IMG/VR virus record: IMGVR_UViG_3300020171_000031
Span: 1-59,359 of that record
Origin: a virus
DNA: 59,359 nt
Strand: one strand, 5' to 3'
This document shows, one piece after another, positions 15,946-37,207 of the stretch. How positions within the stretch are numbered: the stretch's first letter is position 1; each line of letters starts with the position of its first letter. The position numbers and the translations under genes were made by a program. Under the pieces are notes generated by a model. The model ran no database searches. It saw only the letters and a list, made by a program, of their open reading frames with translations, and had not been told where the DNA came from.

Positions 15946-15957
15946 AGGGAGATGTTG

Positions 15958-16791
15958 ATGGCGTGGATTCAAGTGCATCAGAGCCTGCCAACCCACCGCA
16001 AAACCCTGGCGGCGGCGGCCATTTTAGGGGTGTCGGGCGTGCAGATGGTCGGGCATCTGGTCACTTTCTGGCTCTGGTGTTTGGATAACGCACCTATGGG
16101 CCAGCTAGGCGAAACGCCCAATGCGGTGATTGCCAGCGCGGCCCTCTGGCCCGGGGAGCCAGACGTTTTCGTATCTACTCTTTGCAGCACGCGACTCCTG
16201 GACGGAGCGCCGGGCAACTTGGCAATCCATAACTGGCCGCAATATGGCGGCAAGCTGGTCGAGAGCCGGACCCGGGACGCCGCCCGGCAGCGGGCCTTTC
16301 GCGAGCGCGCACGGCCACCTGTATCTGATGGAGCGTTACCGTTACGTAACGGGTACGTCACGGGTACGTCACGCGCTAGAGTAGAAGAGAGTAGACTTAG
16401 TACTCCTAAGGAGAGTATAGATAAACAACAGTCTGAGGGAGAAGATACTCCGCGCGCGCGGAGTCACGCGCGCATAACGTCGGCAGCGGCATTGTTGGCC
16501 CTCTTCTCACCCACTGAGATGATGAACATAAAGACGCGGTTCAACGGCACCGACTTGGAGTGGGAGGCTGCGAAGTGCGTTGAGTGGCACAGCGCGAAGA
16601 CGAAGGGTGGCCTCCGTAACGGTAAGCTGGGCTTTCGCAATTGGTTGGACCACTGTAAGCAGCGGGAGGTGCGAGATCGAGGAGTCGGAGGAGTCGGAAA
16701 ACCCTATCAGTTCACGAACGCGGGGGACGCGGGGCCTGACGAGTCTCACGAGACTCCTGCCTCGGATGACGCGGGAGGTAGCGCAGTGTAG
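15958..16791 (+). CDS. Replisome organiser / initiator, O-type
   Basis: ATG 15958 has GGGAG 8 nt upstream; 15952 is too close. The N-terminus (MAWIQVHQSLPTHRKTLAAA ... WLWCLDNAPMGQL) matches the winged-helix start of phage replication initiators that carry an HxxLxxH-like opening. The centre is low-complexity at the DNA level and coincides with the candidate origin. The C-terminal segment (about residues 185-240) resembles a helicase-loader interaction domain. It precedes DnaC- and DnaB-like genes, as in lambda-type modules. Confidence 0.72.
   Translation: MAWIQVHQSLPTHRKTLAAAAILGVSGVQMVGHLVTFWLWCLDNAPMGQLGETPNAVIASAALWPGEPDVFVSTLCSTRLLDGAPGNLAIHNWPQYGGKLVESRTRDAARQRAFRERARPPVSDGALPLRNGYVTGTSRARVEESRLSTPKESIDKQQSEGEDTPRARSHARITSAAALLALFSPTEMMNIKTRFNGTDLEWEAAKCVEWHSAKTKGGLRNGKLGFRNWLDHCKQREVRDRGVGGVGKPYQFTNAGDAGPDESHETPASDDAGGSAV
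16335..16463. other. Candidate replication origin inside the initiator gene
   Basis: 16335-16375 holds overlapping TTACCGTTACGTAACGG and repeated GGGTACGTCAC units. This is followed by an A/T-richer stretch (16378-16440, far less GC than its surroundings) and a perfect 16-bp palindrome CTCCGCGCGCGCGGAG at 16448-16463. Iterons, an unwinding region and location within an O-type gene mirror the lambda arrangement (known biology). Function is inferred. Confidence 0.5.
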
Positions 16792-22114: not shown

Positions 22115-22321
22115 ATGGCTCTTGATATACGGGCTGAACACATAGAGCGCCTAGCGAAAGCAGAGGCCGCCTATCAGTTAGCGCATAGCGCGTGGCGGGC
22201 GGCGGACTGGGACCTGGGGGAGACAGGGGAGACATTCGAGGCGATGAATAAGGCGTGCGAGGCCCGCGATGACGCTCAATTGAACTTGGACAAGCTAGAG
22301 AATCCAGAGTTATTTGCATGA
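22115..22321 (+). CDS. Small coiled-coil protein ahead of the integrase
   Basis: 68 residues, ATG 22115 preceded by CCAGGAGGGACTG. Almost entirely helical (MALDIRAEHIERLAKAEAAY), with its stop overlapping the integrase start by 4 nt. It could be a small regulator or excisionase-like factor, but the sequence lacks an evident winged helix. Confidence 0.7.
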   Translation: MALDIRAEHIERLAKAEAAYQLAHSAWRAADWDLGETGETFEAMNKACEARDDAQLNLDKLENPELFA

Positions 22322-23232
22322 AGCCCGACCTGGCCCGGTTTACCCAGTGGATGCGCTTCCCACCCGACGTGGACATGCTCGGGAGGACGGTTCGTGCCAA
22401 GGGCGAGGGGACGATCAAGCAGTACCTCTACACCGCCGGGCGCTATGCGGAGTTTCTCGCAGGCCGAGACATGAGCACGGAAACGACCCGCGAGTGGATA
22501 GACGGGCTTACTGGAAATAGCGCCAGGAGCAAGGCGCACCACATCGAGGCGCTGAAGGCCCTCTTCTTCGCCCATGACATGCGGCTCGGTCTGGGCAAGC
22601 CCAAGTTTACCGAGAGCCTGCCGCGGGTGCTGAGTGAGGACGAGCTGACGCGGCTCATCGCGGATGCCAGGGAGCGGACCCGCAGCACGGACATAGGCGC
22701 CTACGGGCTGGAGCGAGCCGCCTGGCGCTACGTCCTCGTGATGGTCTTCTTCGGCTCTGGGGTGCGGAAGGACGAGGGGCGCAAACTCCGGGTGGAGGAT
22801 GTGGTCCGAGATGGCAACGAGGGGACGATTCACGTGCGTGAGGGCAAGGGTGGCGATGACAGGTACATCGCGGTCGAGGGGGAAGTGGTTGATGCGGTAG
22901 ATGACTGGCTGGCGATCCGCCGCATCAAGTCCCCCTGGATATTCGCCGGCCGCGATGCCTCCAAGCCCGCGAGCCGTCATCCCATCGAGGTGGGCCTCAC
23001 CCAGGCGTGCCGGTACGTGGGTATCCGGGACTTCCACGTCCACATGGCGCGCCACTCGTATGCGACCGCCCTGGCGAGGGGCGACGCCGACGCCGAGGCC
23101 ATCCGGGTCCAGCTAGGCCACAAGTCCGTGACCACGACGCAGAAGTACCTGCACCTAACGCTGTCGGAGCGTCGGGGGCACCTCCCGTCGGTAGTGGGGA
23201 CCACGCGCCCGAAGCAGCTTAAGGAGAAGTAA
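22318..23232 (+). CDS. int: Tyrosine recombinase (integrase)
   Basis: 304 residues. N-terminal SAM-like core-binding domain (about 20-95), then the catalytic domain with the conserved Arg in GSGVRKDEGRKLR, Lys in REGKGGDDRYIA, His-x-x-Arg in HVHMARHSYAT, His in LGHKSVTTTQKY, and the nucleophile Tyr in that last motif. All key residues are present. It should catalyse integration and excision at an att site; no certain attP was found. Confidence 0.93.
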   Translation: MKPDLARFTQWMRFPPDVDMLGRTVRAKGEGTIKQYLYTAGRYAEFLAGRDMSTETTREWIDGLTGNSARSKAHHIEALKALFFAHDMRLGLGKPKFTESLPRVLSEDELTRLIADARERTRSTDIGAYGLERAAWRYVLVMVFFGSGVRKDEGRKLRVEDVVRDGNEGTIHVREGKGGDDRYIAVEGEVVDAVDDWLAIRRIKSPWIFAGRDASKPASRHPIEVGLTQACRYVGIRDFHVHMARHSYATALARGDADAEAIRVQLGHKSVTTTQKYLHLTLSERRGHLPSVVGTTRPKQLKEK

Positions 23233-25817: not shown

Positions 25818-25971
25818 GAAGCGCAAGACCCTGGAGGAGGCGGCCCAAGAGCGCCTGGAGGCCGAGAGGGAGCTGGCCGAGCGGAATGAGCGGTGGGACC
25901 GGTTGATGGAGGACCAGCGGCGCGCAAAGGCGTTGAGAGACGGCCCTGCCCCCGACGCTAATCGCAACTAG
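25810..25971 (+). CDS. Small highly charged helical protein, 53 aa
   Basis: ATG 25810 is preceded by AGGAGAGCAGAAG. MARKRKTLEEAAQERLEAER and following residues form a single long charged helix. Function unknown. Confidence 0.6.
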   Translation: MARKRKTLEEAAQERLEAERELAERNERWDRLMEDQRRAKALRDGPAPDANRN

Positions 25972-26511: not shown

Positions 26512-26904
26512 ATGGACATCTCGATAGCTGTCAACAATCTAATCCAGAGCTACCCGTTCGTGGCCCTGACCGTTCTCCTCTTGGCCAACGTGGTCCTGGG
26601 TGCCCTGAACGCCCTCCGACCCGATCCGGACGGCGTGCGTAGGTTCACAGCCCTGGAGCTCACGGACATCTGCAAGAAGGTGGTGCCATTCATCGGCACC
26701 TACTTCGCCCTGGGCACCGGTGGGGAGGTATTGCAGAATGGCTATGGCGAGCTGTTGAAGGCCGTGGGAGCTGTTCTACCTGGTATCGCCTTCGCTCTAG
26801 GCACCCTGAAGAACGCTCTGGGTCTGGTAAACATCCAGGTTCCGTCTTGGCTTGTGTGGCTCTACCCACAGAAAGTCGCAGTGCGCGGCCCGAATATGGG
26901 GTAG
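26512..26904 (+). CDS. Holin-like membrane protein
   Basis: 130 residues, ATG 26512 after GAGAGGAGTTCC. Three hydrophobic segments (about 16-36, 58-76, 84-104), few charged residues between them, and total size fit phage holins of the phi29 type. No endolysin gene is adjacent. Permeabilisation of the host membrane is the likely role, by homology of form rather than a certain family match. Confidence 0.65.
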   Translation: MDISIAVNNLIQSYPFVALTVLLLANVVLGALNALRPDPDGVRRFTALELTDICKKVVPFIGTYFALGTGGEVLQNGYGELLKAVGAVLPGIAFALGTLKNALGLVNIQVPSWLVWLYPQKVAVRGPNMG

Positions 26905-26919
26905 GTAGCCGCACCCCTC

Positions 26920-26948
26920 TTGACAAGCCCCTGGCCTGCGAGTATGCT
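26920..26948 (+). promoter_or_regulatory. Consensus promoter for a short transcript
   Basis: TTGACA (26920-26925), 17-nt spacer, TATGCT (26943-26948). It sits directly before the terminator at 26992-27030, so its transcript should be about 75-80 nt. Confidence 0.75.
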
Positions 26949-26954
26949 TGACCT

Positions 26955-27030
26955 TGCCTGGTTAGTCTGCCTTGCCAGGCCACATCTCCTTGTACCGCTC
27001 CTCTTGCCACGGGGGGGCGGTACTGTTTTT
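26955..27030 (+). ncRNA. Candidate small regulatory RNA
   Basis: Between a strong promoter and an intrinsic terminator lies a 75-nt transcript with no ORF. It has a CCTGG/CCAGG stem-loop (26956-26980), then GCCACATCTCCTT at 26979-26991, which is the exact reverse complement of the ribosome-binding sites AAGGAGATGTGGC before the genes at 29437 and 30884; 11 of these bases also match before 31138. Trans-acting translational control is proposed. Confidence 0.55.
26992..27030 (+). terminator. Intrinsic terminator of the small RNA
   Basis: GTACCGC (26992-26998) pairs with GCGGTAC (27017-27023), followed by TGTTTTT. The inner loop adds extra G-C pairing. Confidence 0.75.
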
Positions 27031-27066
27031 AGTCACCAGCGACAGGCTTTATGAACAGTTAAAGGC

Positions 27067-27096
27067 TTGACAAAGCCCTCTCATCTAATGTAGAGT
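27067..27096 (+). promoter_or_regulatory. Promoter before the tRNA
   Basis: TTGACA (27067-27072), 18-nt spacer, TAGAGT (27091-27096), or TGTAGA at 16-nt spacing. It lies about 40 nt before the tRNA-type sequence. Confidence 0.6.
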
Positions 27097-27134
27097 GGGG
27101 CTGAGGCCAGACGTGGGGCTGAGGCCTGACGCGA

Positions 27135-27202
27135 TGCGGGGGCATGGTGCACTGGGGTCTCATAAGCCTCTGGGCTTGGTTCGATTCCAGGCCCCGCTAC
27201 CA
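27135..27202 (+). tRNA. tRNA with CAT anticodon (Met type), shortened D arm
   Basis: Acceptor TGCGGGG/CCCCGCT (six pairs) with A73 and an encoded CCA (27200-27202). Anticodon stem GGGGT/GCCTC with loop CTCATAA and T33, anticodon CAT. T arm CTTGG-TTCGATT-CCAGG is perfect. The D arm is only about 9 nt (GCA-TGG-TGC), far shorter than normal. Either a divergent phage tRNA or the intact 3' half of a host tRNA retained as an attachment site. Confidence 0.65.
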
Positions 27203-27258
27203 AGTGAGCTGCCGAACAGTCGCCGTCCAAGACGGCGTTCGGAGAAGGAGATGGAGAT

Positions 27259-27354
27259 ATGCGTAGGGCACTCTCATGGGTCTGGGAAGCGCTGGTACGT
27301 GGCGAACAGTTGAAAGGGCTTTCCTGGGGGCCTTGGTTCCTGGTGCAGCCATGA
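27259..27354 (+). CDS. Small ORF coupled to the next gene, 31 aa
   Basis: ATG 27259 is preceded by GAGAAGGAGATGGAGAT. MRRALSWVWEALVRGEQLKG is followed by LSWGPWFLVQP. Its TGA overlaps the next ATG. Possible leader peptide. Confidence 0.45.
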   Translation: MRRALSWVWEALVRGEQLKGLSWGPWFLVQP

Positions 27355-27692
27355 CGGACCCGAAGGATGCAGCCTGTCCCCGCTGTGGAGCGGAAGCAGG
27401 TCAACCCTGTAAGACCAAGACGGGGGCGGTGGTCAACTCGCGAGGGAACGTGCATCCGGCGCGGCTCCCTTTGCCGAGCACCATTCTCACCCTCCTGAAC
27501 ACCAAGCTGGTGGACGTGTTGGAGTTCCGGCCGGCCGCCCGGGCTGGCCGGAAGGACATCCCGTGGTTGCTCCGTCGGGCCGCAGACGTGCTGGAGAGCG
27601 ACGACCGGCCCATCGAGGGGATAGAGCTCACCCTGGAGGCGGCGCCGGACGGCACCTGGGTGCTCGTGGCCCAGGTGGTGCATCCGCAGTAG
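27351..27692 (+). CDS. Zinc-finger protein, 113 aa
   Basis: ATG 27351. Its N-terminus, CPRCGAEAGQPCKTKTG, is the CxxCgA...PC zinc motif seen in small actinobacterial and phage proteins; the residue after it is helical with a RPIEGIELTLEAAPDGTWVL beta sheet. Followed directly by G-rich repeats. Function unknown. Confidence 0.72.
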   Translation: MTDPKDAACPRCGAEAGQPCKTKTGAVVNSRGNVHPARLPLPSTILTLLNTKLVDVLEFRPAARAGRKDIPWLLRRAADVLESDDRPIEGIELTLEAAPDGTWVLVAQVVHPQ

Positions 27693-28020
27693 AGGGCGAA
27701 GGGGGAGGAAGGGCCAGGTCGGGGCAGGCTGGCGAACGGCTGGGAACGGAGAGGCTGGCGGTAGGAAAGGGGACGTGCGGCTTGGGGAGGTAGGCGGACG
27801 GAAAGGCGCGGCTCGGCTCTGGTAGGCGATAGGGTGGGGGCTAGAACAGGACAGGCTGGCGGAAGGTCAGGGAAGGGCGGAACCGGGTCGGCTAGGCTGG
27901 CGGTAGGAATGGGCCGGAATGGGGAGGCTGGCGGGAGGGCAGAACCGGACTGGGTTGGCCAGGCTGGCGGTAGGTTTGGGGAGGGCGGGCCAGGAGGCGA
28001 ACGGGCGAAGACAGGCACGG
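27693..28020. repeat. G-rich degenerate repeat array, locus 1
   Basis: A 328-base noncoding purine-rich stretch on the plus strand. AGGCTGGCGGTAGG-type units recur about six times (near 27727, 27750, 27850, 27893, 27924, 27959) with irregular spacing of 20-100 nt. The same unit recurs at 42342-42620. No gene was found inside. Confidence 0.6.
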
Positions 28021-28051
28021 ATGTGGTAAACTATCGGTGAAAGGAGGAGCC

Positions 28052-28477
28052 ATGCTGCTACGGTTACTCATGTTCCTGGTGTCCTTCCTGGTCCTGGTGG
28101 TGGCCCTGGTGGTCCAGCTGGTGGGGAGCATCGTCGCCACCTTCCTGACCGCCTCGCGGCCGGCTGTCCGCATTCTCACGATGCCCCTGCGGGTGCTCAA
28201 ACATCCACCCGCGATGTCCCTGGTGGCCTTCAGTTGGTTGATGAGAAGCGCCGCCCTGGTCCTGGTTACAACCACCAGGGCCACTTCCGGCGCATGCACA
28301 CGACTGGTTAACATCCTCGTTGGACGACCTGCTGCGAGCGCCAACCATATTGACGTGAAGGGTCTAGCCCGGCATCACCTGGCGCTGCGGGAGACCGGCC
28401 TACGTGGACGACAGCTGCGCGTTCTGCTCACACGGCTGTGGGACTTGCCCAGCGTGGGCGTGACCTCCGCGGGCTAA
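28052..28477 (+). CDS. Membrane protein with basic tail, 141 aa
   Basis: ATG 28052 follows GAAAGGAGGAGCC. Residues 4-30 form one or two hydrophobic helices (LLMFLVSFLVLVVALVVQLV). The rest is Arg/Leu/Ala-rich and ends near a tRNA-like element on the other strand. Family unknown. Confidence 0.65.
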   Translation: MLLRLLMFLVSFLVLVVALVVQLVGSIVATFLTASRPAVRILTMPLRVLKHPPAMSLVAFSWLMRSAALVLVTTTRATSGACTRLVNILVGRPAASANHIDVKGLARHHLALRETGLRGRQLRVLLTRLWDLPSVGVTSAG

Positions 28478-28479
28478 TC

Positions 28480-28546
28480 AGCCGCCTAAACCGGCTTACG
28501 CCCCTGACTTCCAAGGCCAGGGCGTCTGCCGTTCCGCCACAGCGTG
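28480..28546 (-). tRNA. Degenerate tRNA-like element (Leu/Ser-type D arm)
   Basis: On the minus strand TGGCGGAACGGCAGACGC is a canonical class II D arm, followed by an anticodon arm CTGGC-CTTGGAA-GTCAG (anticodon TGG if read literally) and a variable arm GGC-GTAA-GCC. No acceptable T arm or paired acceptor follows, so it is probably a broken tRNA or an att-site relic. Confidence 0.3.
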
Positions 28547-28837
28547 CATTCATCACAGGCTGGATAACCAGTACCGAGCAATGCACGGGACAGAGGGCGA
28601 CCCACCAGGGCCGCCCTCTTGTGTTGCCTCTAGGGAAACGTAGCTGCGCGGAGGAGGGCTCGCCACTGGAGACCACGCCGCACCCGCCGGTGGTGCGCAT
28701 CGCCTGATCACACCGCCACCACTCGCCAGATACAGGCCAGATATAACAGCCGCCCGAAGCGCCAGCCCCACGTAGCCCTATCTACTAGCATATAAATCAA
28801 CGTTGAGTATGCGAGTGACCTAACTCTAGTTAAAGCC
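28547..28837. other. Noncoding stretch without clear feature
   Basis: Apart from scattered short dyads I see nothing here. The region becomes A/T-richer near 28790-28810, just before the promoter. Confidence 0.4.
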
Positions 28838-28866
28838 TTGACATAGAGCCTGGACTAGGGTATATT
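28838..28866 (+). promoter_or_regulatory. Near-consensus sigma70 promoter of the repeat array operon
   Basis: TTGACA (28838-28843), 17-nt spacer, TATATT (28861-28866). The expected start near 28873 leaves a leader of about 180 nt before ATG 29054. Confidence 0.8.
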
Positions 28867-28872
28867 GTATCT

Positions 28873-29053
28873 GCGCAAGGCAAATCTAAGCGCCAGGTGA
28901 ATCGAATCCGAAACCGACCACAACCGAATAGGCAACGGTCTACCCTGAGGTACTGGCCGCAAGGCCAAAAGACTCACCGTAGGCCAGAAAGCCAAATGGC
29001 TTCACTCTCTCTAGGCGTGGCATAAGCAAGCCATAGCCTACAGGGGGTGAAAC
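28873..29053 (+). ncRNA. Structured 5' leader of the repeat-array operon
   Basis: About 180 nt without an ORF but dense in stems: TGGCC-GCAA-GGCCA with a GNRA loop (28954-28967) inside ACGGT/ACCGT (28935-28980); AAGCC-AAAT-GGCTT (28990-29003); and TAGGC...GCCTA enclosing TGGC/GCCA (29012-29040) just upstream of GGGGTG. The second stem overlaps the left arm of array unit A, so alternative folds compete. Candidate riboregulator. Confidence 0.5.
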
Positions 29054-29367
29054 ATGACAGAGTTTGCCGGGGTTAGAGTCCAGGGCACAAAGGGCTTAGG
29101 ACTAGCGCCGTTTTCCGGAATATTCGCCGACGAAGCAGCGGGCCCGACGAAGAGCTTGGTGCAAGCACGGTCCGAGCTCCAGTACATCGTGGCAGAGTTG
29201 CAGGGCATCCTGGACGGCGAGTTCGATGGCACAGACGCCGAGTGGGCGAAGTACGACGCTGAGGGCGGCGACGATGCCGTCTTGCAGGTGCTCGTACATC
29301 GCCTGGACGCCATCACCTGTCGTATTTAGGTGCGGGGCTTCCGCCCCGCCTAGAGAGAGTGAAGCCA
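28997..29367. repeat. Array unit A: ORF enclosed by a 21-bp inverted repeat
   Basis: 28997-29017 is the exact reverse complement of 29347-29367. The single ORF 29054-29329 lies between. After its stop a 7-bp hairpin with TTCC loop (29332-29349) overlaps the right arm by 3 nt, so the two structures exclude each other in part. Confidence 0.85.
29054..29329 (+). CDS. Hypothetical protein of array unit A, 91 aa
   Basis: ATG 29054 follows CAGGGGGTGAAAC. MTEFAGVRVQGTKGLGLAPF then a helical, acidic C-terminal half (QARSELQYIVAELQGILDGE). No known family. It is the first ORF after the strong promoter at 28838 and the structured leader. Confidence 0.75.
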   Translation: MTEFAGVRVQGTKGLGLAPFSGIFADEAAGPTKSLVQARSELQYIVAELQGILDGEFDGTDAEWAKYDAEGGDDAVLQVLVHRLDAITCRI

Positions 29368-29369
29368 AA

Positions 29370-30119
29370 GGTTCCCGCTACTGGGCGGCGCCCTCTCCCT
29401 CTTCAAGAATCTGAACGGAAGAGAAGGAGATGTGGCATGGCAGAGACAATCCAGGCGACCCCAGTAGTGACAACCCCCGTAGACCCCCTGGCCGACGAGG
29501 AGGCCAAGTTGCTGGCCAAGCTGGCCGCACTCCGGGCGGAGCGCGTGGTCAACACGGCCAGGGACATCTTGACGGCGGGCCTCAAGGCCAAGCTCCCGGA
29601 CGTGGTCAAGGCCGTCACGGACGAGGCCAAGTTCGACCTCCACAAGGCGGGAGTGGGCGTGTGGCTGTACTACGCCAAGGAGACGGGCAGCCCGATGATA
29701 TGCCTGCTCTCCGTCGGCGACGACGGCCTCCACCCCAAGGCCATGAAAGTCCACAAGGCGACCAACGGCAACGGGACGCCCAAGGCGGCCTCCAACGGCA
29801 ACGGCAACGGCAACGGCAACGGGAAGCCCGCCGGCGTCGAGTACGACGCCTTCCTGTACGACGGGCGGGGCCCGTTTCCCGTCGGGGCGGACTACAAGAC
29901 GGCGTACGACGCCGTCTTCGACGCCCTGGCCGTCCCGAAGGCGGAGCGCCCCAACCACAACAGGCCGGAGAGGTGGGCGGGCAAGTGGCAGGCCCGCGTC
30001 CTCATCGTGGAGCGCGGGAAGCGCCCCACAGACCAGCAGTTCGCGGAGGCCAAGGCGAAGGTGGCCTCCATCAAGTCCTAGAACCCAGGCGGGAGGGGCG
30101 CCGCCCAGTAGCGGGAACC
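29370..30119. repeat. Array unit B: ORF enclosed by a 24-bp inverted repeat
   Basis: 29370-29393 is the exact reverse complement of 30096-30119. With one bulged base it extends by five more pairs (29395-29399 with 30091-30095). Only the ORF 29437-30081 lies inside. Its left arm starts 2 nt after unit A ends. Confidence 0.88.
29437..30081 (+). CDS. Array unit B protein with Gly/Asn linker and C-terminal repeat domain
   Basis: 214 residues; SD AAGGAGATGTGGC is complementary to the candidate small RNA. N-terminal domain (about 12-108) is helical then beta. Residues 110-130 are NGNGNGNGNGNGK-type linker. The C-terminal domain (about 135-210) contains AYDAVFDALAVPKAERPNHN and WQARVLIVERG, a pattern also found at the ends of the proteins at 44282 and 45446. 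No known family; a shared small binding domain is inferred. Confidence 0.78.
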   Translation: MAETIQATPVVTTPVDPLADEEAKLLAKLAALRAERVVNTARDILTAGLKAKLPDVVKAVTDEAKFDLHKAGVGVWLYYAKETGSPMICLLSVGDDGLHPKAMKVHKATNGNGTPKAASNGNGNGNGNGKPAGVEYDAFLYDGRGPFPVGADYKTAYDAVFDALAVPKAERPNHNRPERWAGKWQARVLIVERGKRPTDQQFAEAKAKVASIKS

Positions 30120-30121
30120 GA

Positions 30122-30457
30122 CTCACTTCCTCCAGGCGCAGCAGAAGCGCAGGAGGAGGAGACATGAACCAGTGCATCCGGGGGAAGGTGGTGCCGTTCT
30201 GGAAGCAGCCCATCATCTACAAGGTGGTGGACTGGGCTGCCGACCACTACTACGGCTGGTTCCGGGATGTGGACCGTGCGGAGGCACGGGCCCGGGAAGT
30301 CCACGGCCTGGTGGTGTCCCAGACTGTTGGTGCCGGGACGCGCTTCCTGGCGAGCATCCGCCAAGCGGGTGAGTTCGCCAAGGCAGCGGCCAAGATGGAT
30401 GCCAACGGTGGGAGGTTGGAGTAGGTCGGGGCTTCTGCCCCGCCTGGAGGAAGTGAG
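30122..30457. repeat. Array unit C: ORF enclosed by a 17-bp plus 8-bp inverted repeat
   Basis: 30122-30138 matches the reverse complement of 30441-30457. After a 2x2 internal loop, 30141-30148 (GCAGAAGC) matches 30431-30438 (GCTTCTGC). The inner arm also forms its own TTCT-loop hairpin (30427-30442), so the two folds compete. Encloses ORF 30164-30424. Confidence 0.86.
30164..30424 (+). CDS. Hypothetical protein of array unit C, 86 aa
   Basis: ATG 30164 follows AGGAGGAGGAGAC. MNQCIRGKVVPFWKQPIIYK, then a WFRDVDRAEARAREVHGLVV helix. Basic at the start and acidic/helical at the end. No known family. Bracketed exactly by unit C repeats. Confidence 0.72.
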   Translation: MNQCIRGKVVPFWKQPIIYKVVDWAADHYYGWFRDVDRAEARAREVHGLVVSQTVGAGTRFLASIRQAGEFAKAAAKMDANGGRLE

Positions 30458-30458
30458 G

Positions 30459-30741
30459 CTCGTCTCACCCGACGGCGGGATAACGCCGAGGAGGTGTGAC
30501 GTGACCATCGAAGAGACGATGGCCAAGATGGACGCCGCGGGCGCGGAGGCCGGGAAGGAGCTGGCCGAGACGTTCGAGCCGGCGGAGATCCGCAAGGTGG
30601 GGGCCTGGCTGGACCGCCACTGGCGGAAGGCGGGGTACAAGCGGCTCGTCGGAGAGCTGCTGGTCCAGGGCGGGTTCCAGTGGAACCCGCGGCCTCCGAA
30701 GGGCTAGGTACGGGGGTTCTCCCCCCGTCGGGTGAGACGAG
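30459..30741. repeat. Array unit D: ORF enclosed by a 17-bp inverted repeat
   Basis: 30459-30475 is the exact reverse complement of 30725-30741. Starts 1 nt after unit C. Contains a CGGCG...CGCCG hairpin near 30474-30488 just before the SD and a TTCT-type hairpin at 30710-30728 after the stop. Encloses ORF 30501-30707. Confidence 0.85.
30501..30707 (+). CDS. Hypothetical protein of array unit D, 68 aa
   Basis: GTG 30501 follows CGAGGAGGTGTGAC. VTIEETMAKMDAAGAEAGKE then a basic helical region (LDRHWRKAGYKRLVGELLVQ). Size and shape suggest a helical DNA- or protein-binding module. Family unknown. Confidence 0.7.
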   Translation: MTIEETMAKMDAAGAEAGKELAETFEPAEIRKVGAWLDRHWRKAGYKRLVGELLVQGGFQWNPRPPKG

Positions 30742-30743
30742 AG

Positions 30744-30867
30744 TTCGCTCCCTCCGGGTGCGGCAGAAGCCGTAGCCCGATGTGCCTCCCGGGCTGGACG
30801 AGATGGTGCCAGGTACTCGGGGCGGCGCGGCGAATGGCCGGCTTCTGCCGCACCCGGAGTGAGCGAA
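30744..30867. repeat. Array unit E: 28-bp inverted repeat without a normal ORF
   Basis: 30744-30771 pairs with 30840-30867 at 27 of 28 positions. Only 68 nt are enclosed, with an inner AGCCCG/CGGGCT hairpin. It starts 2 nt after unit D. The right arm contains GGCTTCTGCC with a TTCT loop like units C and D. It may be a unit that has lost its gene. Confidence 0.82.
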
Positions 30868-30883
30868 GAAAGGAGATGTGGCA

Positions 30884-31061
30884 ATGGCGAGGTTCTGGCA
30901 GGCGCCAGAGCCGCCGGACGTGGCCGCCCAACGTGCGAAGCTGGGGCAGGCGTTGGGGCTGCACAGTACGGTATGCGGATGCTCACCCTGGGGTCACGGT
31001 ATACGCATGGCGCGACATCCGCCACGGGTTGTTCTTCGGGATGAAGACGATAGTGGAGTAG
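30884..31061 (+). pseudogene. Hypothetical gene with a G-run frame break
   Basis: ATG 30884 with SD AAGGAGATGTGGC starts MARFWQAPEPPDVAAQRAKL. About 25 codons later the sensible frame becomes YADAHPGVTVYAWRDIRHGL, ending at TAG 31061. Removing one G of the run 30955-30958 joins them into a protein of about 59 residues. It is not enclosed by an array repeat. Function unknown. Confidence 0.5.
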
Positions 31062-31115
31062 GCGCGGTTGCGCCTCCCCCAGGAGGGCCGAGACGGCTCC
31101 GCCATCTTGGGGGAG
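31061..31115 (+). terminator. Tandem hairpins after the array region
   Basis: GGCGC-GGTT-GCGCC (31061-31074) overlaps the stop codon. CTCCCCCA near 31074 pairs with TGGGGGAG ending at 31115 (about 12-15 pairs with one mismatch). No U run, so likely mRNA end-processing or a weak terminator. Confidence 0.5.
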
Positions 31116-31137
31116 ATGCAAACGAAAGGAGATGTGC

Positions 31138-32178
31138 ATGACAGCAGGCAAACCCTGTCCCGTGGCAGGCTGCGGGTACGCGGCGCTGTCGCAGGGCGAC
31201 CTGGACGGGCACACCGCCTACGCTCACCGTGAGCGGAAGCCGACCCCCTCCGGCAACCCTGTGGCCGCGCCTCCAGCTCCGCAGCGGGCCGACAAGCCGG
31301 AGTGGCATCCGGCGCTGTACGTCCCGCAACGCGACCCGCACTTTTGGGTTGCGGACGAAACCACCCGCTTGTTCTTCGTCCTGCAAATGCGGACGGAGGC
31401 GGGCCATCAGGAGAACGTGCTTCTCCGTGGCCCCAAGGGGACGGGCAAGACGACGCTGCCGCGGATATACGCGGCGGCGTGCAAGCGCCCGTTCTTCTCC
31501 ATGGACTGCGGAGCCGTCTCGGAGCTCTCCGACTGGTGGGGTGACAAGGAGCTGGAGGGCGGGCGCACCTTCACTGTGAGAGCAGCCCTGGTGGACGCCC
31601 TGGAGACAGAGAACTGTGTCGTCCTGCTGGACGAGGCCAACAGGACGCATCCCGAGAACCTGAACGCCCTATTCGGCCTCCTGGACCACAGGCGAGCCGC
31701 GTGGGTCCCGCTGCTCCGGCGGGAGGTACGCGTGGCGCGGGGCGTGACGTTCTTCACGACGCTCAACGAGGGGACGGAGTACGCGGGCACCAACCCCGTG
31801 GACTCGGCCCTGCGGGACAGGTTCTCCTACACCATCGTGACCACCTGGCCGCCGGAGCTTGAGGAGGCGGCCATCCTGGTGGGCCGAACGGGGGTGGACC
31901 AGGATATGGCGGCGAAGTTGGTACGGTTCGCCAACACCGTCCGCCGCACCCCCGCCATCCACTACGCCCTGTCCACCAGGGCCCTCTTGGCCACGTGCCA
32001 GTGTCTCCAGGAGGGCATGGCGTTGCAGGAGGCGGCGCTGTTCACTGTCGTCAACGCGGCGCCCGAGGATGTGGACCGAAAACTCCTTCTGCAAGCGCTT
32101 CAGATGCACGTCGGGAAGATTGACGAGGCGTGGGTAGTCTCCGTGACGGGCGAAGCCGTCCAGGGGGCGACGCCATGA
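31138..32178 (+). CDS. MoxR-type AAA+ ATPase with N-terminal C2H2 finger
   Basis: 346 residues; ATG 31138 is preferred to 31132, which lies in the SD. Residues 6-28 form a C2H2 finger (CPVAGCGYAAL ... HTAYAH). The AAA+ core has Walker A RGPKGTGKTTLP, Walker B CVVLLDEANR and sensor TTLNEGTEYAGT. MoxR-type ATPases remodel proteins together with VWA partners, and the next gene (overlap 4 nt) is such a partner. The small-RNA complement covers its SD. Confidence 0.9.
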   Translation: MTAGKPCPVAGCGYAALSQGDLDGHTAYAHRERKPTPSGNPVAAPPAPQRADKPEWHPALYVPQRDPHFWVADETTRLFFVLQMRTEAGHQENVLLRGPKGTGKTTLPRIYAAACKRPFFSMDCGAVSELSDWWGDKELEGGRTFTVRAALVDALETENCVVLLDEANRTHPENLNALFGLLDHRRAAWVPLLRREVRVARGVTFFTTLNEGTEYAGTNPVDSALRDRFSYTIVTTWPPELEEAAILVGRTGVDQDMAAKLVRFANTVRRTPAIHYALSTRALLATCQCLQEGMALQEAALFTVVNAAPEDVDRKLLLQALQMHVGKIDEAWVVSVTGEAVQGATP

Positions 32179-34487
32179 CGCAGCGAAACCTCTCGGACTT
32201 CTGGCGCTTTGACAAGTCGGACGACCTGGTGATGGAGATGGTGAGCGTTCTCCAGGGGGCCGACAACCTCATCGGGCTGATGTCGGGCGACATGCAGCGG
32301 GAGAAGCTCATGGAGAAGCGGATGCGCGTCCGCTGGTGCCCAGGGGATGTGAGCGCGGTCTCTCCGGAGCGGGAGGTCGTGTTCCTCAACTACCGCCACC
32401 TGCGGGGCGTGCCGACGCCCTTCCCGGGCGAGGCGGTGGACAAGGTGATAGGCGACGCGGCCCATGAGGGGGGCCACGTCCTGTGGACGGGCAACACGCC
32501 CGACTGGGCGGCGGAGTTGCACCGCCGCTACATGATGCGGGGGAAGAACGGAGGCCGTGGAAAGTTCGCCATCTGGTACGGGCGCAACCGTCAGGGGATG
32601 GTGGCGTGGTTCAAGGACTGCGCCAACATCCTGGAGGACGCCTACGTGGACAAGAAGGTGAGCAACCGATGGCCCGTCCTGGGCGCCTATATCCAGCAGG
32701 CGAAGGCGAATAACCCCGCGGACCTTCGGGTAGATTGGGATGCCATCGCGGCGAAACCGAAGCCGTCCATGCTGGAGATGCGGAATCTCTGGTGTCACCT
32801 GGCGCTGTACGGCGGCGATGTCCCGGCGCAACTCTCCAGGAGTGTGCGGGATGGGCTCGACTTCCTGCTCGACTCCACGCTGCGCGTTCTCAAGCTGGAA
32901 AGTGTCGGGCTTCGCCTGGACGTGGCGTTCGAGTGCCTAGTGTACATGGTCAAGGCGTACACGGAGGACGAGCGGGCGCTTCCGAAGAAGCCGCCCGCGC
33001 CCCAGGCTCCAGCAGCTGAGTTGGCCGAAGGCGAGGGGGAGGGAGGGCAAGGCGACCCCACTCCTGGTGAGACGGGCCTGCCCGACCTGGAGAAGAAGCC
33101 CAAGGCCACCCCAAAGGGTGAGAAGGAGGACGAGGGTGAAAAGCAAGACGGCGAGGACGCCGATGGAGATTCGGACGCTGACGCAGCGGACGGTGCAGGC
33201 GATAAGGAGGCTGGACAGGCTCCTGCCACCGATGCCGAGCCCGACGAAGAGGACGAGAACGCCGACCCGGAAGCCGGCCAGGATGGCGAGGGCAAAGGCG
33301 GAGACGCAGACGGCGCTGGCGAAAATGGAGAGGATAGTGCGGAGGCTGGCAGCGGCTCCGCCGACGCCGACGGAGAGGGCAAGGCTGGAAAGAAAGACAC
33401 GGGCGGCGAAGCGGGAGAAGGCGGCGGCAAGGGCGGCGAGGAGGGTGACGGGGAAGATGGGGGTGAGGAAGCCGACGTCACGCCGTCCTTAAAGCTGGCG
33501 CCCAAGCAGCCCGACGAGGACAAGGACGAGTACACTCCGGGCGGCACCAACGCGGCCAGCGATACGCTGGAGCACCAGCGGGATATGCAGTCCCAGGTCA
33601 TCACGGTGGACGACCCGCACCTCCTGGAACTGGTGGAGAAGGCGATGGCCGAGCAGCTGGAACTGCTCACCAAGGAGGTCGCCGACATCCTGGCGCAGAA
33701 GCCGGAGGAGGTGGCTACCAGAGCGCGCCGCGCCTCCTATGACGCCCAGGCTCTGGCGGAGATTCGCCTGCGCATCGGACAGCAGGCGGCGAATCTCCGC
33801 AGGGTGTTCGAGCAGGAGATGCGGGCTAACTCGCGCTTCCTGCGCGGGCAGCTCAGAGGGCGGCTGGACACCCGCCGCCTGGCCAGGGTGGGAGCGGGCG
33901 ACTACAACGTGCGGATGCGGCGTGAGGTTATCGGGAAGCCCGACCTGGCCCTGGGCCTCCTGATGGATGTGAGTGGGTCCATGATGGGCTACATGCCCGT
34001 AGTGTGGGAGACGGCGGGCCTGTTCGCGGAGGCGCTGGTGGGGCGGCCTGGGATTAACTTCCTGGGTTGCACCTACACCACCGAGTATTCCAATGGGCAA
34101 AACGGGACTTGCCTGACGCGCATCGCCGACAGGGGTCTGGGGCGGCTGTGCGTCGGGGATGTGGTGCAGGGTGGTGGCACTCCCTCCGGGCAGGCTATCG
34201 CCGCCATGCGGGTGCTGGTGGGGCGGATGCCCGAGCGGGAGAAGGTGATAATCCACTTCACGGATGGCCAGCCCGACCGGGAGGAGCCAGTCCGGCGGGC
34301 GGTGGAGGCGTGTCGCCAGGCGGGCATTGGGGTGGTGTGCATCACGGTGCTGGATGGGGGCTGGCGCGGCGCCACCTGGCAGCAGCAGCACCTGGACTTG
34401 CAGTACGGGCGCGGAAACTGGGGACTAATCGGCAAGGTGGAGGACCTGCCCAAGGCGGTGGCGGCCCTCCTCAAGAGTCTAGCGTAG
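32175..34487 (+). CDS. VWA-domain CobT-like partner of the MoxR ATPase
   Basis: 770 residues from ATG 32175 (MTQRNLSDFWRFDKSDDLVM). N-terminal helical/zincin-like part with AAHEGGHVLWTG, an HExxH site near residue 98. Residues 280-440 are Asp/Glu/Gly-rich and disordered. A coiled region (about 465-560) then leads to a VWA domain with the MIDAS motif LMDVSGSMMGY (about 595) and a later Thr/Asp pair (GTPSGQ, FTDGQ). Family: CobT/CbbO-like cofactors. Possible combined peptidase-remodelling function is inferred. Confidence 0.88.
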   Translation: MTQRNLSDFWRFDKSDDLVMEMVSVLQGADNLIGLMSGDMQREKLMEKRMRVRWCPGDVSAVSPEREVVFLNYRHLRGVPTPFPGEAVDKVIGDAAHEGGHVLWTGNTPDWAAELHRRYMMRGKNGGRGKFAIWYGRNRQGMVAWFKDCANILEDAYVDKKVSNRWPVLGAYIQQAKANNPADLRVDWDAIAAKPKPSMLEMRNLWCHLALYGGDVPAQLSRSVRDGLDFLLDSTLRVLKLESVGLRLDVAFECLVYMVKAYTEDERALPKKPPAPQAPAAELAEGEGEGGQGDPTPGETGLPDLEKKPKATPKGEKEDEGEKQDGEDADGDSDADAADGAGDKEAGQAPATDAEPDEEDENADPEAGQDGEGKGGDADGAGENGEDSAEAGSGSADADGEGKAGKKDTGGEAGEGGGKGGEEGDGEDGGEEADVTPSLKLAPKQPDEDKDEYTPGGTNAASDTLEHQRDMQSQVITVDDPHLLELVEKAMAEQLELLTKEVADILAQKPEEVATRARRASYDAQALAEIRLRIGQQAANLRRVFEQEMRANSRFLRGQLRGRLDTRRLARVGAGDYNVRMRREVIGKPDLALGLLMDVSGSMMGYMPVVWETAGLFAEALVGRPGINFLGCTYTTEYSNGQNGTCLTRIADRGLGRLCVGDVVQGGGTPSGQAIAAMRVLVGRMPEREKVIIHFTDGQPDREEPVRRAVEACRQAGIGVVCITVLDGGWRGATWQQQHLDLQYGRGNWGLIGKVEDLPKAVAALLKSLA

Positions 34488-34497
34488 GAGGTGTGCG

Positions 34498-34665
34498 ATG
34501 GAACAGCAAGCGGAGGACCGTGAAAAGGAGGAGGCTTTCGAGAGGGCTTTACGGCTCCTGCTTGAGGACCCGCAGTCACTCGGGATGACACTGGGGGAGT
34601 GGACAGCGGAGATGGCGAAGGACGAGACGCCGAAGGAAGGCAGGAGACAGCGAAAGGAGGTGTGA
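34498..34665 (+). CDS. Small acidic helical protein, 55 aa
   Basis: ATG 34498 follows GTAGGAGGTGTGCG. MEQQAEDREKEEAFERALRL is a charged helix. Followed by another SD and gene. Unknown. Confidence 0.65.
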   Translation: MEQQAEDREKEEAFERALRLLLEDPQSLGMTLGEWTAEMAKDETPKEGRRQRKEV

Positions 34666-34666
34666 G

Positions 34667-34939
34667 ATGGTACGGCAGGAAACGGTAGAGAGGGAAGCGG
34701 AGCAGCGGGGCCTGATGGCTCCCGCCGAGGCGGTCGAGACGCTCTCGACGTGGCGGCAGTCCGTGGGGCGGTGGGACCTGCCCAAGGCGGTGGAGGAGGC
34801 GGTGGAAGTGCTGACCGCCTTCAACGTCCACCAGTGCGGCGAGACGTGCCCGTGCTGGCGGGAGGGCTTCGAGGCGGGCAAAGAGCACGCGCGGGACACG
34901 GTGGGCGACTGGTACGAGCCAAGGCCGTTCGGAAGATAG
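34667..34939 (+). CDS. Hypothetical protein with a Cys cluster, 90 aa
   Basis: ATG 34667 after AAAGGAGGTGTGAG. Helical N-terminal half. Near residue 57, HQCGETCPCW gives three Cys and one His close together, a possible metal site. Precedes the Ku gene by 24 nt. Function unknown. Confidence 0.68.
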   Translation: MVRQETVEREAEQRGLMAPAEAVETLSTWRQSVGRWDLPKAVEEAVEVLTAFNVHQCGETCPCWREGFEAGKEHARDTVGDWYEPRPFGR

Positions 34940-34963
34940 AACCGACGAAAGAAGGAGAGTGAC

Positions 34964-35761
34964 ATGAGCAGACCATTGTGGAAAGGCACGGTCAGTTTTG
35001 GCCTTGTCAACATCCCCGTGGCGCTCTATGGAGCGACGGACGAGCTGAAGGTCAGCTTCCGCACGCTCCACAAGGGGTGCGCTGCGCCCATCGCGCAGCA
35101 GCACACCTGCACCGCCTGTAAGCAGGTGGTGGAGAGGGCGGATGAGGTCAAGGGGTATGAGGTCGAGGAAGGCCGCTTCGTCGTCATGGAAGAGGCGGAC
35201 TTCGCGGGCCTCCCCGTAGCGTCCCAGACGAGCATCAAGGTGGTGGGCTTCGTGGACTCATTCCAGGTGGACCCGCGCCAGCTCGATGAGCCGTACTTCA
35301 TGGGCATCGGGCAGACCAAGCGGGGGAAGGTGAACGTCGTGGACCAGGGAGCGGCCAAGGGGTTTGCCCTCCTGCACGCCGCGATGCAGAAGCTGGACAA
35401 GCTGGCGGTGGCCAAGGTGACGATGCGCCAGCGGGAGAAGCTGGTGGTGTTCCGTCCCTATGGCGACGTGATGCTTCTCCAGACGTTGCGATGGCCCGAC
35501 GAGCTTCGGTCGGCGGAGGCGCCTGCTCTGCCGGAGGTCTCGGACAAGGAGTTGGCGCTGGCCGAGTCGCTGGTGAACGCCATCGGCGGGTGTGACCTGA
35601 CTAAGTTCAGCGACGAGTACCGGGAGGCGCTGGAGAAGGTCATCCAGGCAAAGGCGGCGGGCCAGCCCGTCGTGAGCGCGGTGCCGACGGAGGCCGAGGC
35701 CACGGTGGACGTGATGGGCGGCCTGGAGGCCAGCCTGGCGGCGCTGCGAGGAGCGGTATGA
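34964..35761 (+). CDS. ku: Ku DNA end-binding protein
   Basis: 265 residues, near the usual bacterial Ku length. MSRPLWKGTVSFGLVNIPVA is the typical opening; CTACKQVVERADEVKGYEVE and the later EPYFMG and KLVVFRPYGDVMLLQTLRWP strands match the beta-barrel core. The C-terminus (VDVMGGLEASLAALRGAV) resembles the family's end-binding tail. Ku holds DNA ends for non-homologous end joining. The ligase gene follows 500 bases on. Confidence 0.92.
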   Translation: MSRPLWKGTVSFGLVNIPVALYGATDELKVSFRTLHKGCAAPIAQQHTCTACKQVVERADEVKGYEVEEGRFVVMEEADFAGLPVASQTSIKVVGFVDSFQVDPRQLDEPYFMGIGQTKRGKVNVVDQGAAKGFALLHAAMQKLDKLAVAKVTMRQREKLVVFRPYGDVMLLQTLRWPDELRSAEAPALPEVSDKELALAESLVNAIGGCDLTKFSDEYREALEKVIQAKAAGQPVVSAVPTEAEATVDVMGGLEASLAALRGAV

Positions 35762-36048
35762 AAACAATCTGGAAGTACGCATTGTTGGTCGCGGACCGCC
35801 AAGAGCTTCAGATGCCCACTGGCGCTAACTTCCTGGCTGTCCAGGTTCAACGGGAGGAGATATGCCTGTGGGCCCTCGTTGACACTGACAACCCATTGGT
35901 AGGGCGCCGCATTCACACTTATGGGACAGGGCAGGGGCTGGGTGAGCTTGGCACCTACATCGGCACCTATCAGCTACGGGGTGGGGGGCTGGTGTTCCAT
36001 GTCTTTGAGGAACGACGCAGCGGTCTTGGCGGAGATCCGGCTGCATGA
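35758..36048 (+). CDS. Hypothetical protein, 96 aa
   Basis: ATG 35758 overlaps the Ku stop by 4 nt. MKTIWKYALLVADRQELQMP, then a beta-rich core (FLAVQVQREEICLWALVDTD, then FHVFEERR). This resembles small conserved phage proteins of unknown function (recall). Overlaps the next gene by 4 nt. Confidence 0.72.
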   Translation: MKTIWKYALLVADRQELQMPTGANFLAVQVQREEICLWALVDTDNPLVGRRIHTYGTGQGLGELGTYIGTYQLRGGGLVFHVFEERRSGLGGDPAA

Positions 36049-36263
36049 GCGAGGAGCGGCGCATCGGGATGAGAAAGGTGGGCCCGTGGGTCTATTGTGG
36101 CCACGGGCCGGAGGGTCTCTTGTGGGCGGCGCCCTCGGACATCGGGAACCTCGTCATCCTCCGATGGGTAAAACTGGGCTGGTGGCCGCTCATCCGGGTT
36201 CACGAGACTTGGGTGGAGCGGGACAGGCTCCTGAATGCCATTGAGAAGGGGGTGCTCAAGTGA
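36045..36263 (+). CDS. Small hypothetical protein, 72 aa
   Basis: ATG 36045. MSEERRIGMRKVGPWVYCGH followed by a WVKLGWWPLIRVHETWVERD segment. Overlaps both neighbours by 4 nt, so it belongs to the Ku-ligase operon. No family known. Confidence 0.65.
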   Translation: MSEERRIGMRKVGPWVYCGHGPEGLLWAAPSDIGNLVILRWVKLGWWPLIRVHETWVERDRLLNAIEKGVLK

Positions 36264-37207
36264 AGCTGGAACCGATGCTGGCAGAGCCTGGGGTCAAGCC
36301 CCGTGTGGACCCGTCGCTCCTGCACGAGGTCAAGTACGACGGCGTGCGCACGCTCTTCGTCGTGGAGGACGGGCACGTCACCTTCTGGTCCAGGGGAGGG
36401 CACGACATCACCGCAGCGTTCCCCGAGCTGGCGGAGGTGCCGTCCCACCTCAAGATGCAGAACGGCGTTGGGGATGGGGAGATAGTAGTGGGCAACGGGA
36501 CGATGGCCGACTTCAACGCCATCTCGCGTCGCGTCCACGTGCAGGACCCCTTGAAGATTCGACTGCGCTCGCGGGAGACGCCGACTAACCTCCGGGTGTT
36601 CGACCTGCCCGTGTATGAGCGGGATGACCTCACGGTGAATGGCGTGCGGCTGTCGCTAATGCAGCGCCGCGAGTTGCTTGCGGCAACCATCCGGGGTGGT
36701 CTGCCGAATGGCGTGGTGTGCATGGGCGACGCTGGGGAGTTCGGCGACGGCGCGGCGTTCTTCCGCTCCTGCCTGGAGCAGGGCTACGAGGGCATGATGG
36801 TGAAGAGCAAGGCGGGCCTCTACTACCCCGGGAAGCGACACCCTGACTGGGGCAAGAGCAAGCTGGAGCAGACAGCCGACTTCCAGGTGGTGGGCTACAC
36901 CTGGGGTGAGGGATGGAGGGGAGAGCGCCAACTCTTCGGTGCGCTGGTGCTGTCCACAGGCACACCAGGCAATCTCCAGTATTGCGGCGAGGTGGGTGGC
37001 GGCTTTACCAATGAGGAGCTGGAGACCATCGGGGCCCACCTGCGCACGATTGCCGTCTCGCAATGCCCGATGGTCAAGCTGGAAAAGGTAGAGGGGCTGT
37101 GCTCGTGGGTCGCGCCAGGGCTGGTGGTCGAGGTTAAGTTCATGGACTGGACGAGTGACCGGAAGCTCCGCTTTCCAAGATTCAAGGCAGTCCGGAGGAT
37201 GCGATGA
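36260..37207 (+). CDS. ATP-dependent DNA ligase
   Basis: 315 residues. Motif I EVKYDGVR has the adenylated Lys at residue 25. Motif III-like region near 105-115, EGMMVKSKAG (motif IV) and WGKSKLEQ (motif V) follow. An OB-fold C-terminal domain ends the protein. This is the size of LigD-type stand-alone ligases. Together with Ku, it can seal joined ends; polymerase and nuclease domains of LigD are absent. Confidence 0.92.
   Translation: MKLEPMLAEPGVKPRVDPSLLHEVKYDGVRTLFVVEDGHVTFWSRGGHDITAAFPELAEVPSHLKMQNGVGDGEIVVGNGTMADFNAISRRVHVQDPLKIRLRSRETPTNLRVFDLPVYERDDLTVNGVRLSLMQRRELLAATIRGGLPNGVVCMGDAGEFGDGAAFFRSCLEQGYEGMMVKSKAGLYYPGKRHPDWGKSKLEQTADFQVVGYTWGEGWRGERQLFGALVLSTGTPGNLQYCGEVGGGFTNEELETIGAHLRTIAVSQCPMVKLEKVEGLCSWVAPGLVVEVKFMDWTSDRKLRFPRFKAVRRMR

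Follow-up and report, generated by a model that had tools for sequence, protein, structure and literature searches.

What could a phage achieve by enclosing each of several small genes in a row between its own pair of complementary sequences? This question is raised by IMGVR_UViG_3300020171_000031, an IMG/VR virus record of 59,359 bases with a G+C content of 63.7% that we analyzed over its whole length (hereafter the window). Its positions 28997-30867 hold five abutting units, here called A to E, which are each closed by their own long inverted repeat, and units A to D bracket one open reading frame (ORF) each that is led by a Shine-Dalgarno (SD) sequence. We propose, with a probability that we put at roughly one half, that this array may be an RNA-level device in a polycistronic phage transcript in which one 5'-3' stem per cistron would license the translation of completed cistrons.

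Five abutting units closed by private inverted repeats

An earlier annotation made from the letters alone (the sequence-only reading) had described five pairs of arms, only 1-2 nucleotides (nt) between successive units, and one SD-led ORF in each of units A to D. Our recomputation located all five pairs where they had been placed (Table 1), measured spacers of 2, 2, 1, and 2 nt, and gave each of the four ORFs a positive coding-plus-SD score. With their imperfect inner extensions, the arms were compared over 31, 24, 27, 29, and 29 positions in units A to E, respectively, and these 140 stem positions comprise 131 Watson-Crick pairs, no G.U pair, and 9 mismatches. The row of long stems that had been envisaged for the transcript is also what the minimum-energy fold of 28880-31120 contains, since all five are present and each left arm pairs with its own right arm (24/31, 24/30, 25/27, 19/29, and 28/29 left-arm bases in A to E). 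Likewise, the best partner of each outer left arm is its own right arm in five out of five units, at -29.6 to -58.4 kcal/mol for own pairs and -7.7 to -25.4 kcal/mol for other pairs.

This pairing lies far above that of shuffled sequence. Only 2 of 1000 dinucleotide shuffles of 28870-31120 held one such repeat and none held two or more, compared to five in the real sequence, while blockwise shuffles of the whole window (n = 100) gave a mean of 0.21 repeats and a maximum of 2. Among 86 other phage loci (1.36 Mb), 44 such inverted repeats were found in 30 loci, none of them abutting. Complementary flanks of at least 12 nt surround 4 of the 129 SD-led ORFs of the window, all four being those of the array, as well as 2 of 1454 SD-led ORFs from 85 other viral loci, with lengths of 12 and 13 nt, and 2 of 207 from five named phage records, where the flanks are in both cases the same 18-nt palindrome of phage phiC31. 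When the threshold was set to 13 nt and each ORF was given a single start, A, C, and D were recovered without B, along with one other locus; the mismatched-flank null for this run was 7 of 3028 pairs. The evidence for the stems is strong. As another measure, whole-gene flank duplex energies placed D, C, B, and A in the top five own-gene pairs of 102, but this measure was dropped as too coarse because a gene outside of the array (35758-36048) ranked third.

Predicted sealing and opening of the ribosome-binding sites

The leader of each ORF unit, from the left arm through the start codon, was folded alone and compared to 1000 shuffles (Table 1). By calculation, two mutually exclusive partners are available to the left arm of units A, C, and D, namely the SD region and the right arm of the same unit. 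These two are near copies of each other in all three units (GAGAGTGAA and GGGGGTGAA in A, GGAGGAAG and GGAGGAGG in C, GGTGAGACG and GGTGTGACG in D), and their differences in A and C are changes from A to G opposite a T that keep the pairing in RNA only. The SD hexamer of the isolated leader is unpaired with a predicted probability of 0.00 in A and C, 0.34 in D, and 0.21 in B. When 102 genes of the window were compared using 57-nt leaders, A and C had the least accessible SD of all and B ranked 15th, with a median of 0.42. Pairing of the left arm with the ribosome-binding site (RBS) is unit-specific in A, B, and D.

The sequence-only reading had already proposed that two folds compete, yet at the right arms, which short hairpins with TTCC or TTCT loops overlap in units A, C, D, and E. 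All of these hairpins are present, and only those of A and C are clearly beyond shuffles (Table 1; the one of unit E has -7.4 kcal/mol with 24 of 200 shuffles as good). The proposal was correct in kind, whereas the decisive competition by calculation takes place at the left arm and not at the right one.

We folded transcripts cut at successive 3' ends, which gives a thermodynamic prediction of the exchange between both partners. The left arm remained on the leader throughout the ORF and then moved to the right arm once the transcript reached 32 nt (A), 27 to 31 nt (C), or 28 nt (D) past the stop codon; in unit B, the 24-nt arm had moved by 38 nt past the stop codon, and the SD hairpin persisted. 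With the right arm present, the predicted cost of opening the region from SD to start codon fell from 17.6 to 4.7 kcal/mol in A, from 9.5 to 1.6 kcal/mol in C, and from 10.2 to 3.9 kcal/mol in D, and the direction was unchanged at 25, 37, and 50°C. After shuffling of the 3' flank, 0, 0, and 4 of 200 sequences opened as easily in A, C, and D, respectively. As a null for this drop, we used 97 of the 103 predicted genes of the window with a uniform 57-nt leader, after exclusion of one gene at the edge and of five that exceed 1150 nt. The array units took ranks 1, 2, and 3 of 97 with drops of 12.9 (A), 7.9 (C), and 4.9 kcal/mol (D), followed by 2.5 kcal/mol for the fourth and a median of 0.0. As a calculation, the predicted SD switch in three of the four ORF units is strong. 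The earlier suggestion that the stems may isolate the translation of each ORF is therefore borne out in part: For A, C, and D, though not for B, the SD is predicted to open in dependence on completion of the cistron.

In the mechanism that we propose, the 5' and 3' untranslated ends of each cistron would pair as a stem of 17-28 base pairs (bp) so that the message would be a chain of one-gene closed loops. The left arm of units A, C, and D would first fold onto its own SD region during transcription and thereby seal the start. The right arm, as a mimic of the SD region, would emerge around 30 nt past the stop codon, capture the left arm, and free the start site, such that translation of A, C, and D would be licensed only once their own 3' end exists. 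Since no switch is predicted for the stems of unit B and the ORF-less unit E, a second role is probably common to all stems, most likely that of an RNase III-type element for processing or stability between the cistrons, and the switch would have been added to it in A, C, and D. We infer that the array is transcribed as one piece of RNA, that the exchange occurs in the cell, and that licensing is its purpose. The bolder idea of a serial translation-licensing array, in which a private 3' SD mimic unlocks the SD of each cistron after its completion, is tentative and rather doubtful; if true, transcription-translation coupling would be switched off gene by gene and translation would start from finished, looped-out cistrons.

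Table 1. Coordinates of the array features and of the promoter-like site upstream (window positions; aa, amino acids)
Feature	Position	Strand	Remarks
Unit A left arm	28997..29017	+	perfect core 21 bp; imperfect extension to 29027
Unit A right arm	29347..29367	+	pairs with unit A left arm
Unit B left arm	29370..29393	+	perfect core 24 bp
Unit B right arm	30096..30119	+	inner GGGAG (30091-30095) adds 5 pairs past a bulge
Unit C left arm	30122..30138	+	perfect core 17 bp; includes CTTCCTCC, an anti-SD
Unit C right arm	30441..30457	+	resembles unit C SD region
Unit D left arm	30459..30475	+	perfect core 17 bp; 21/22 when extended to 30480
Unit D right arm	30725..30741	+	pairs with unit D left arm
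Unit E left arm	30744..30772	+	28/29 pairs
Unit E right arm	30839..30867	+	no ORF wholly within E
Unit A leader hairpin, left arm with SD region	29001..29051	+	-29.4 kcal/mol, z -5.6, 0/1000 shuffles as good
Unit B leader hairpin over SD	29390..29436	+	-23.6 kcal/mol, z -0.93, 184/1000 as good; not beyond shuffles
Unit C leader hairpin over SD	30123..30162	+	-21.5 kcal/mol, z -4.5, 0/1000 as good
Unit D leader hairpin over SD	30462..30500	+	-20.8 kcal/mol, z -3.2, 5/1000 as good
Unit A SD, GGGGGT	29043..29048	+	
Unit B SD, AGGAGA	29425..29430	+	
Unit C SD, GGAGGA	30152..30157	+	
Unit D SD, GGAGGT	30490..30495	+	
ORF A, 91 aa, function not assigned	29054..29329	+	no Pfam, PHROG, or phage match
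ORF B, 214 aa, two parts joined by (NG)n linker	29437..30081	+	no Pfam or phage match; best PHROG E 0.018
ORF C, 86 aa	30164..30424	+	no Pfam, PHROG, or phage match
ORF D, 68 aa, GTG start	30501..30707	+	no Pfam, PHROG, or phage match
Unit A 3' hairpin, TTCC loop, overlaps right arm	29332..29349	+	-14.9 kcal/mol, 0/200 shuffles as good
Unit C 3' hairpin, TTCT loop	30427..30442	+	-12.9 kcal/mol, 0/200 shuffles as good
Unit D 3' hairpin, TTCT loop	30710..30728	+	-12.8 kcal/mol, 7/200 shuffles as good
Sigma-70-like promoter (TTGACA, 17 nt, TATATT)	28838..28866	+	11/12 consensus positions; consensus match only

Covariation of the arms and hints at their origin

Covariation was compared among the units of this one array in one genome. 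The arms differ between units as the sequence-only reading had noted, but they are not wholly unrelated: A gapless alignment is possible for the 17 outer nt of the left arms of A (minus its four outermost nt), C, and E, in which every difference is a transition (A-C 4/4, A-E 5/5, C-E 5/5) and the right arm compensates in 4/4, 4/5, and 5/5 cases, respectively. Given this gapless alignment with transition-only differences, the ends of A, C, and E look paralogous, and they surround different genes. Unit D differs from these other outer arms at 9-13 positions that are all compensated (transitions 6/9, 6/9, and 10/13). Two-sided change by transitions only would be the path of a stem that evolves via G.U pairs, while the present lack of such pairs speaks for recent repair, arm-to-arm copying, or a DNA-level constraint.

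Another hint lies at the upstream border, where the 8 nt before unit A (28989-28996, AAGCCAAA) equal the 8 nt before unit B (29362-29369), which are the end of the unit A right arm plus the spacer. The repeat before A may be the remnant of a unit lost upstream. Target-site duplications were not found, with shared flanks of 2, 0, 0, 0, and 1 nt. The notion of a cassette array thus gains weak indirect support from similar ends around unrelated ORFs and from the 8-nt repeat, and none from target-site duplications.

Alternative explanations of the array

Several results weigh against our proposal of a licensing device. Unit B has the longest perfect arm of all ORF units and no predicted switch, as its opening cost only changes from 7.8 to 7.5 kcal/mol and it ranks 35th of 97 for the drop. 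In the full-length units, the SD hexamer is unpaired with a probability of only 0.24 in A, 0.27 in B, and 0.49 in D (C: 0.77), and because the SD thus stays partly paired in full-length A and D, its opening may need the ribosome's own help. Regarding the leaders, the SD access of D ranks only 34th of 102 and the opening costs of A, C, and D rank 4, 29, and 35 of 97 with a median of 7.4 kcal/mol, which means that a sealed leader is by itself no rarity in this phage. Specificity is imperfect as well, because the left arm of C prefers the RBS of D and that of A to its own and some arms cross-pair (E left with C right at -25.4 kcal/mol, compared to -29.6 kcal/mol for its own partner). A purine-rich SD naturally pairs with a pyrimidine-rich arm, and the dual pairing may therefore be partly incidental. 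Finally, the absence of G.U pairs from all 140 stem positions would be unexpected if selection acted on RNA pairing only, and it keeps a DNA-level origin alive. The leader ranks and the cross-pairing of C and E concern the leader alone and not the drop in opening cost, which ranks A, C, and D first.

Three other explanations have to be weighed with these points in mind. The stems could be per-cistron processing stalks that RNase III would cut to release monocistronic mRNAs with structured ends, with the leader hairpins being secondary. We consider this rather unlikely even though long stems occur in every unit, also in B and E where the SD switch does not explain them, no promoter-like site is listed between units, and a length of 17-28 bp suits a double-strand nuclease; neither the strength of the A, C, and D leader hairpins relative to shuffles nor the likeness of the right arms to the SD region is predicted by it, and local hairpins suffice for RNase III in phage T7. 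A duplex of 5' and 3' untranslated regions (UTRs) that is cut by RNase III is described for icaR (PMC3868564).

That the units are, or descend from, mobile or exchangeable cassettes with terminal inverted repeats, whose arms a DNA-level process copied or required, is in our view unlikely. Terminal inverted repeats are present, the arms are strictly Watson-Crick bar the mismatches, similar ends of A, C, and E surround unrelated ORFs, the identical 8 nt before A and B look as if an upstream unit had been lost, and unit E resembles a unit minus its ORF. Yet no target-site duplication accompanies the units, and the arms of B and D differ from the others such that one transposase could not recognize all of them by sequence. 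Moreover, there is no transposase among the scanned part of the ORFs and the integrase is 6 kb distant, no further copies were found in the window, in 40 phage records, or in phage or plasmid collections, and the leader hairpins would be left unexplained. Very unlikely, lastly, is that the stems block translation so that the closed loop is silent until processing activates it. This is how 5'-3' pairing silences the mRNAs of hok, aapA, and icaR in the cited accounts (PMC6733600, PMC3868564), and the closed form leaves the SD largely paired in A and partly in D; but in each of the three switching units, opening of the start region costs less with the arms paired, and the right arm pairs with the anti-SD rather than the SD. 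The array is real, highly non-random, and without a second example among the sequences searched, and on these predictions it is best read as a new form of 5'-3' end-pairing control of bacterial mRNA.

The enclosed ORFs and the genomic setting

A blastp comparison of ORFs A to D among themselves gave no match at E <= 1. Their maximum 19-residue Kyte-Doolittle means (A 0.69, B 0.83, C 0.83, D -0.09) do not indicate any membrane-span-like stretch. Run without an alignment, AlphaFold2 modeled ORF B poorly (mean predicted local distance difference test score, pLDDT, of 42) and predicted a single long helix for ORF C (pLDDT 73, predicted template modeling score 0.34). The sequence TAGGTNCGGGG at the stop codons of A and D was considered as a shared element and rejected, because its 6 occurrences in the window (with at most 1 mismatch) are not enriched over the 5.1 expected.

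No ORF wholly within unit E was called by the gene finder, and a weak call at 30834-31061 begins in E and extends beyond it. In the ORF that follows unit E (30884-31061), a plausible N-terminus, MARFWQAPEPP..., and a plausible C-terminus, ...VYAWRDIRHGLFFGMKTIVE (ending at 31061), lie in different frames. This ORF seems to be split by a frameshift, be it a mutation, an assembly error, or a programmed shift. Between it and the MoxR-like gene lies another strong hairpin without an ORF that is similar to unit E (31062-31118); the stretch has -37.5 kcal/mol, matched by 1 of 200 shuffles.

The window encodes a DnaB helicase, a replication initiator, a RecT-like protein, an integrase (22318-23232), a ligase, Ku, a MoxR-like ATPase, and a CoxE-type VWA protein, and the MoxR-VWA pair lies directly downstream of the array. 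The promoter-like site of Table 1 is located around 130 nt upstream of unit A and is the last of three in a scan of 26900-35000, which returned no promoter-like site between the units or onward to 35000 and none on the - strand. A scan for intrinsic terminators found none on the + strand inside 28997-30867, the tRNA scan listed none, and Rfam gave 0 matches at the gathering threshold across the window.

Some further features of the window stand apart from the array. A single run at 31138-37207 comprises the genes for the MoxR-like ATPase, the CoxE-type VWA protein, Ku, and the ATP-dependent ligase, so that a phage-borne Ku-ligase pair adjoins the MoxR-VWA pair. Iteron-like repeats at 15892-16373, with TACGTCACGGG units at 16343-16373 and inverted copies around 410 nt upstream, occupy part of the replication initiator gene (15958-16791) and the sequence immediately preceding it, upstream of dnaB, and look like a lambda-O-type origin inside an initiator gene. 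The G-rich stretch at 27690-28040 has only one weak predicted gene, and one of its strands carries numerous divergent copies of GGCTGGCGG(T/A)AGG; GC skew is 0.25 at 27-28 kb.

Search for relatives of the array

We looked for relatives in several sequence collections. The viral contig collection held none that could be detected via the MoxR-like protein, ORF B, the VWA protein, the integrase, or the 22-nt pattern of the A and C 3' ends, and the genome contig collection gave nothing with the VWA protein or ORF B. Among annotated phages, nothing was found by array DNA or with ORFs A to D, and the plasmid collection gave no match to array DNA. Inside the window, the array DNA has no matches other than the array itself, its arms, and a site at 25857-25881 for a 25-nt stretch of ORF D. 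Gordonia phages gave the VWA protein distant matches at 25-29% identity that cover one quarter of the protein, and the stretch of Gordonia phage GMA3 with this match has no abutting repeats. DnaB gave only distant relatives of 31-45% identity (best around 45%), and the whole records of 40 of the 85 DnaB-relative contigs gave no match to the VWA protein or array DNA in a search that had no positive control. No close relative of the phage and no related genome showing gain, loss, or swap of a unit emerged from those searches.

Comparison with known systems

A literature search that covered few subscription journals showed no title or abstract opening on genes in tandem that are each enclosed by a stem of their own, or on a 3' arm that opens an SD, which is weak evidence of novelty. 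Several known systems share individual traits with the array. The 18-bp palindrome of phiC31 mentioned above, which we take to be one of the conserved inverted repeats of this phage that serve as operators, provides two ORFs with complementary flanks of 18 bp as in the array; however, these flanks are one self-palindrome, whereas each pair of the array has its own sequence. In precursor rRNA, stems bracket the 16S and 23S rRNA, and RNase III sites are found in the transcripts of T7. As in the array, such a stem brackets or separates one functional RNA in a polycistronic transcript, but the array brackets protein genes with leaders predicted to seal the SD. T4-type phages carry promoter early stem-loop (PeSL) elements as mobile regulatory cassettes, which are intergenic units of a promoter plus a stem-loop between small phage ORFs in a variable region. 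PeSLs resemble the array by having stem-loops near small phage ORFs, but unlike the array they have no arms that bracket each ORF.

Inverted repeats near gene starts are also known from the start-associated sequences (SAS) and extended SAS (ESAS) of Cluster K mycobacteriophages, which are described as 17 bp imperfect inverted repeats just upstream of some gene starts (PMC3203893). According to this description, ESAS have a common consensus, spacers of 4-13 bp, and an upstream position only, whereas in the array, each gene has arms of its own on either side. For the 13-bp SAS motif, the window yielded 25 matches at 3 mismatches or fewer compared to 29.5 expected, and thus no enrichment.

Other parallels come from messages whose two ends pair. 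Pairing of 5' and 3' UTRs is reported to promote translation in Barley yellow dwarf virus and dengue virus (PMC3868564), and it would favor translation in our reading of the array, too. As presented there, however, these are whole viral RNAs in eukaryotic cells without an SD, whereas the array would have private stems per cistron in a bacterial-type transcript. The 3' UTR of the icaR mRNA of Staphylococcus aureus is described to pair with the SD region, which blocks translation and creates an RNase III substrate, and the authors suggest that a 5' fold may hold ribosomes off until the 3' UTR displaces it (PMC3868564). Like the array, icaR thus pairs 3' UTR and 5' UTR within one message; yet its 3' UTR, by that account, pairs with the SD itself and serves a single gene, whereas each predicted switching 3' arm of the array resembles the SD and would capture the anti-SD, in a row of genes.

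The aapA/IsoA system of Helicobacter pylori and hok stand for type I toxin mRNAs with a long-distance interaction of their 5' and 3' ends. The aapA3 mRNA is described to form SD-sealing hairpins during transcription that are replaced by a long-distance 5'-3' interaction, with the SD hidden until 3' trimming (PMC6733600). Both systems share with units A, C, and D an upstream anti-SD hairpin that seals the nascent SD and a more stable 5'-3' pairing that replaces this leader hairpin once the 3' end is made, although this exchange is a prediction for the array. Their final 5'-3' pairing still hides the SD until 3' processing, however, whereas that of A, C, and D is predicted to free it. Furthermore, a short hydrophobic toxic peptide as in aapA and hok is not what ORFs A to D encode (hydropathy maximum 0.83), single toxin mRNAs contrast with four ORFs in tandem in a phage, and the array has no known antisense RNA. 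Known end-pairing control, as far as these sources describe it, concerns a few single genes, and the bacterial cases compared here keep translation shut. If our reading is true, the array would reverse this sign by using the 3' arm as an SD decoy that opens the start, and licensing of completed cistrons could be built in series. It would then offer a compact and fairly orthogonal part for synthetic operons as well as a natural exception to co-transcriptional translation that simple reporters can test.

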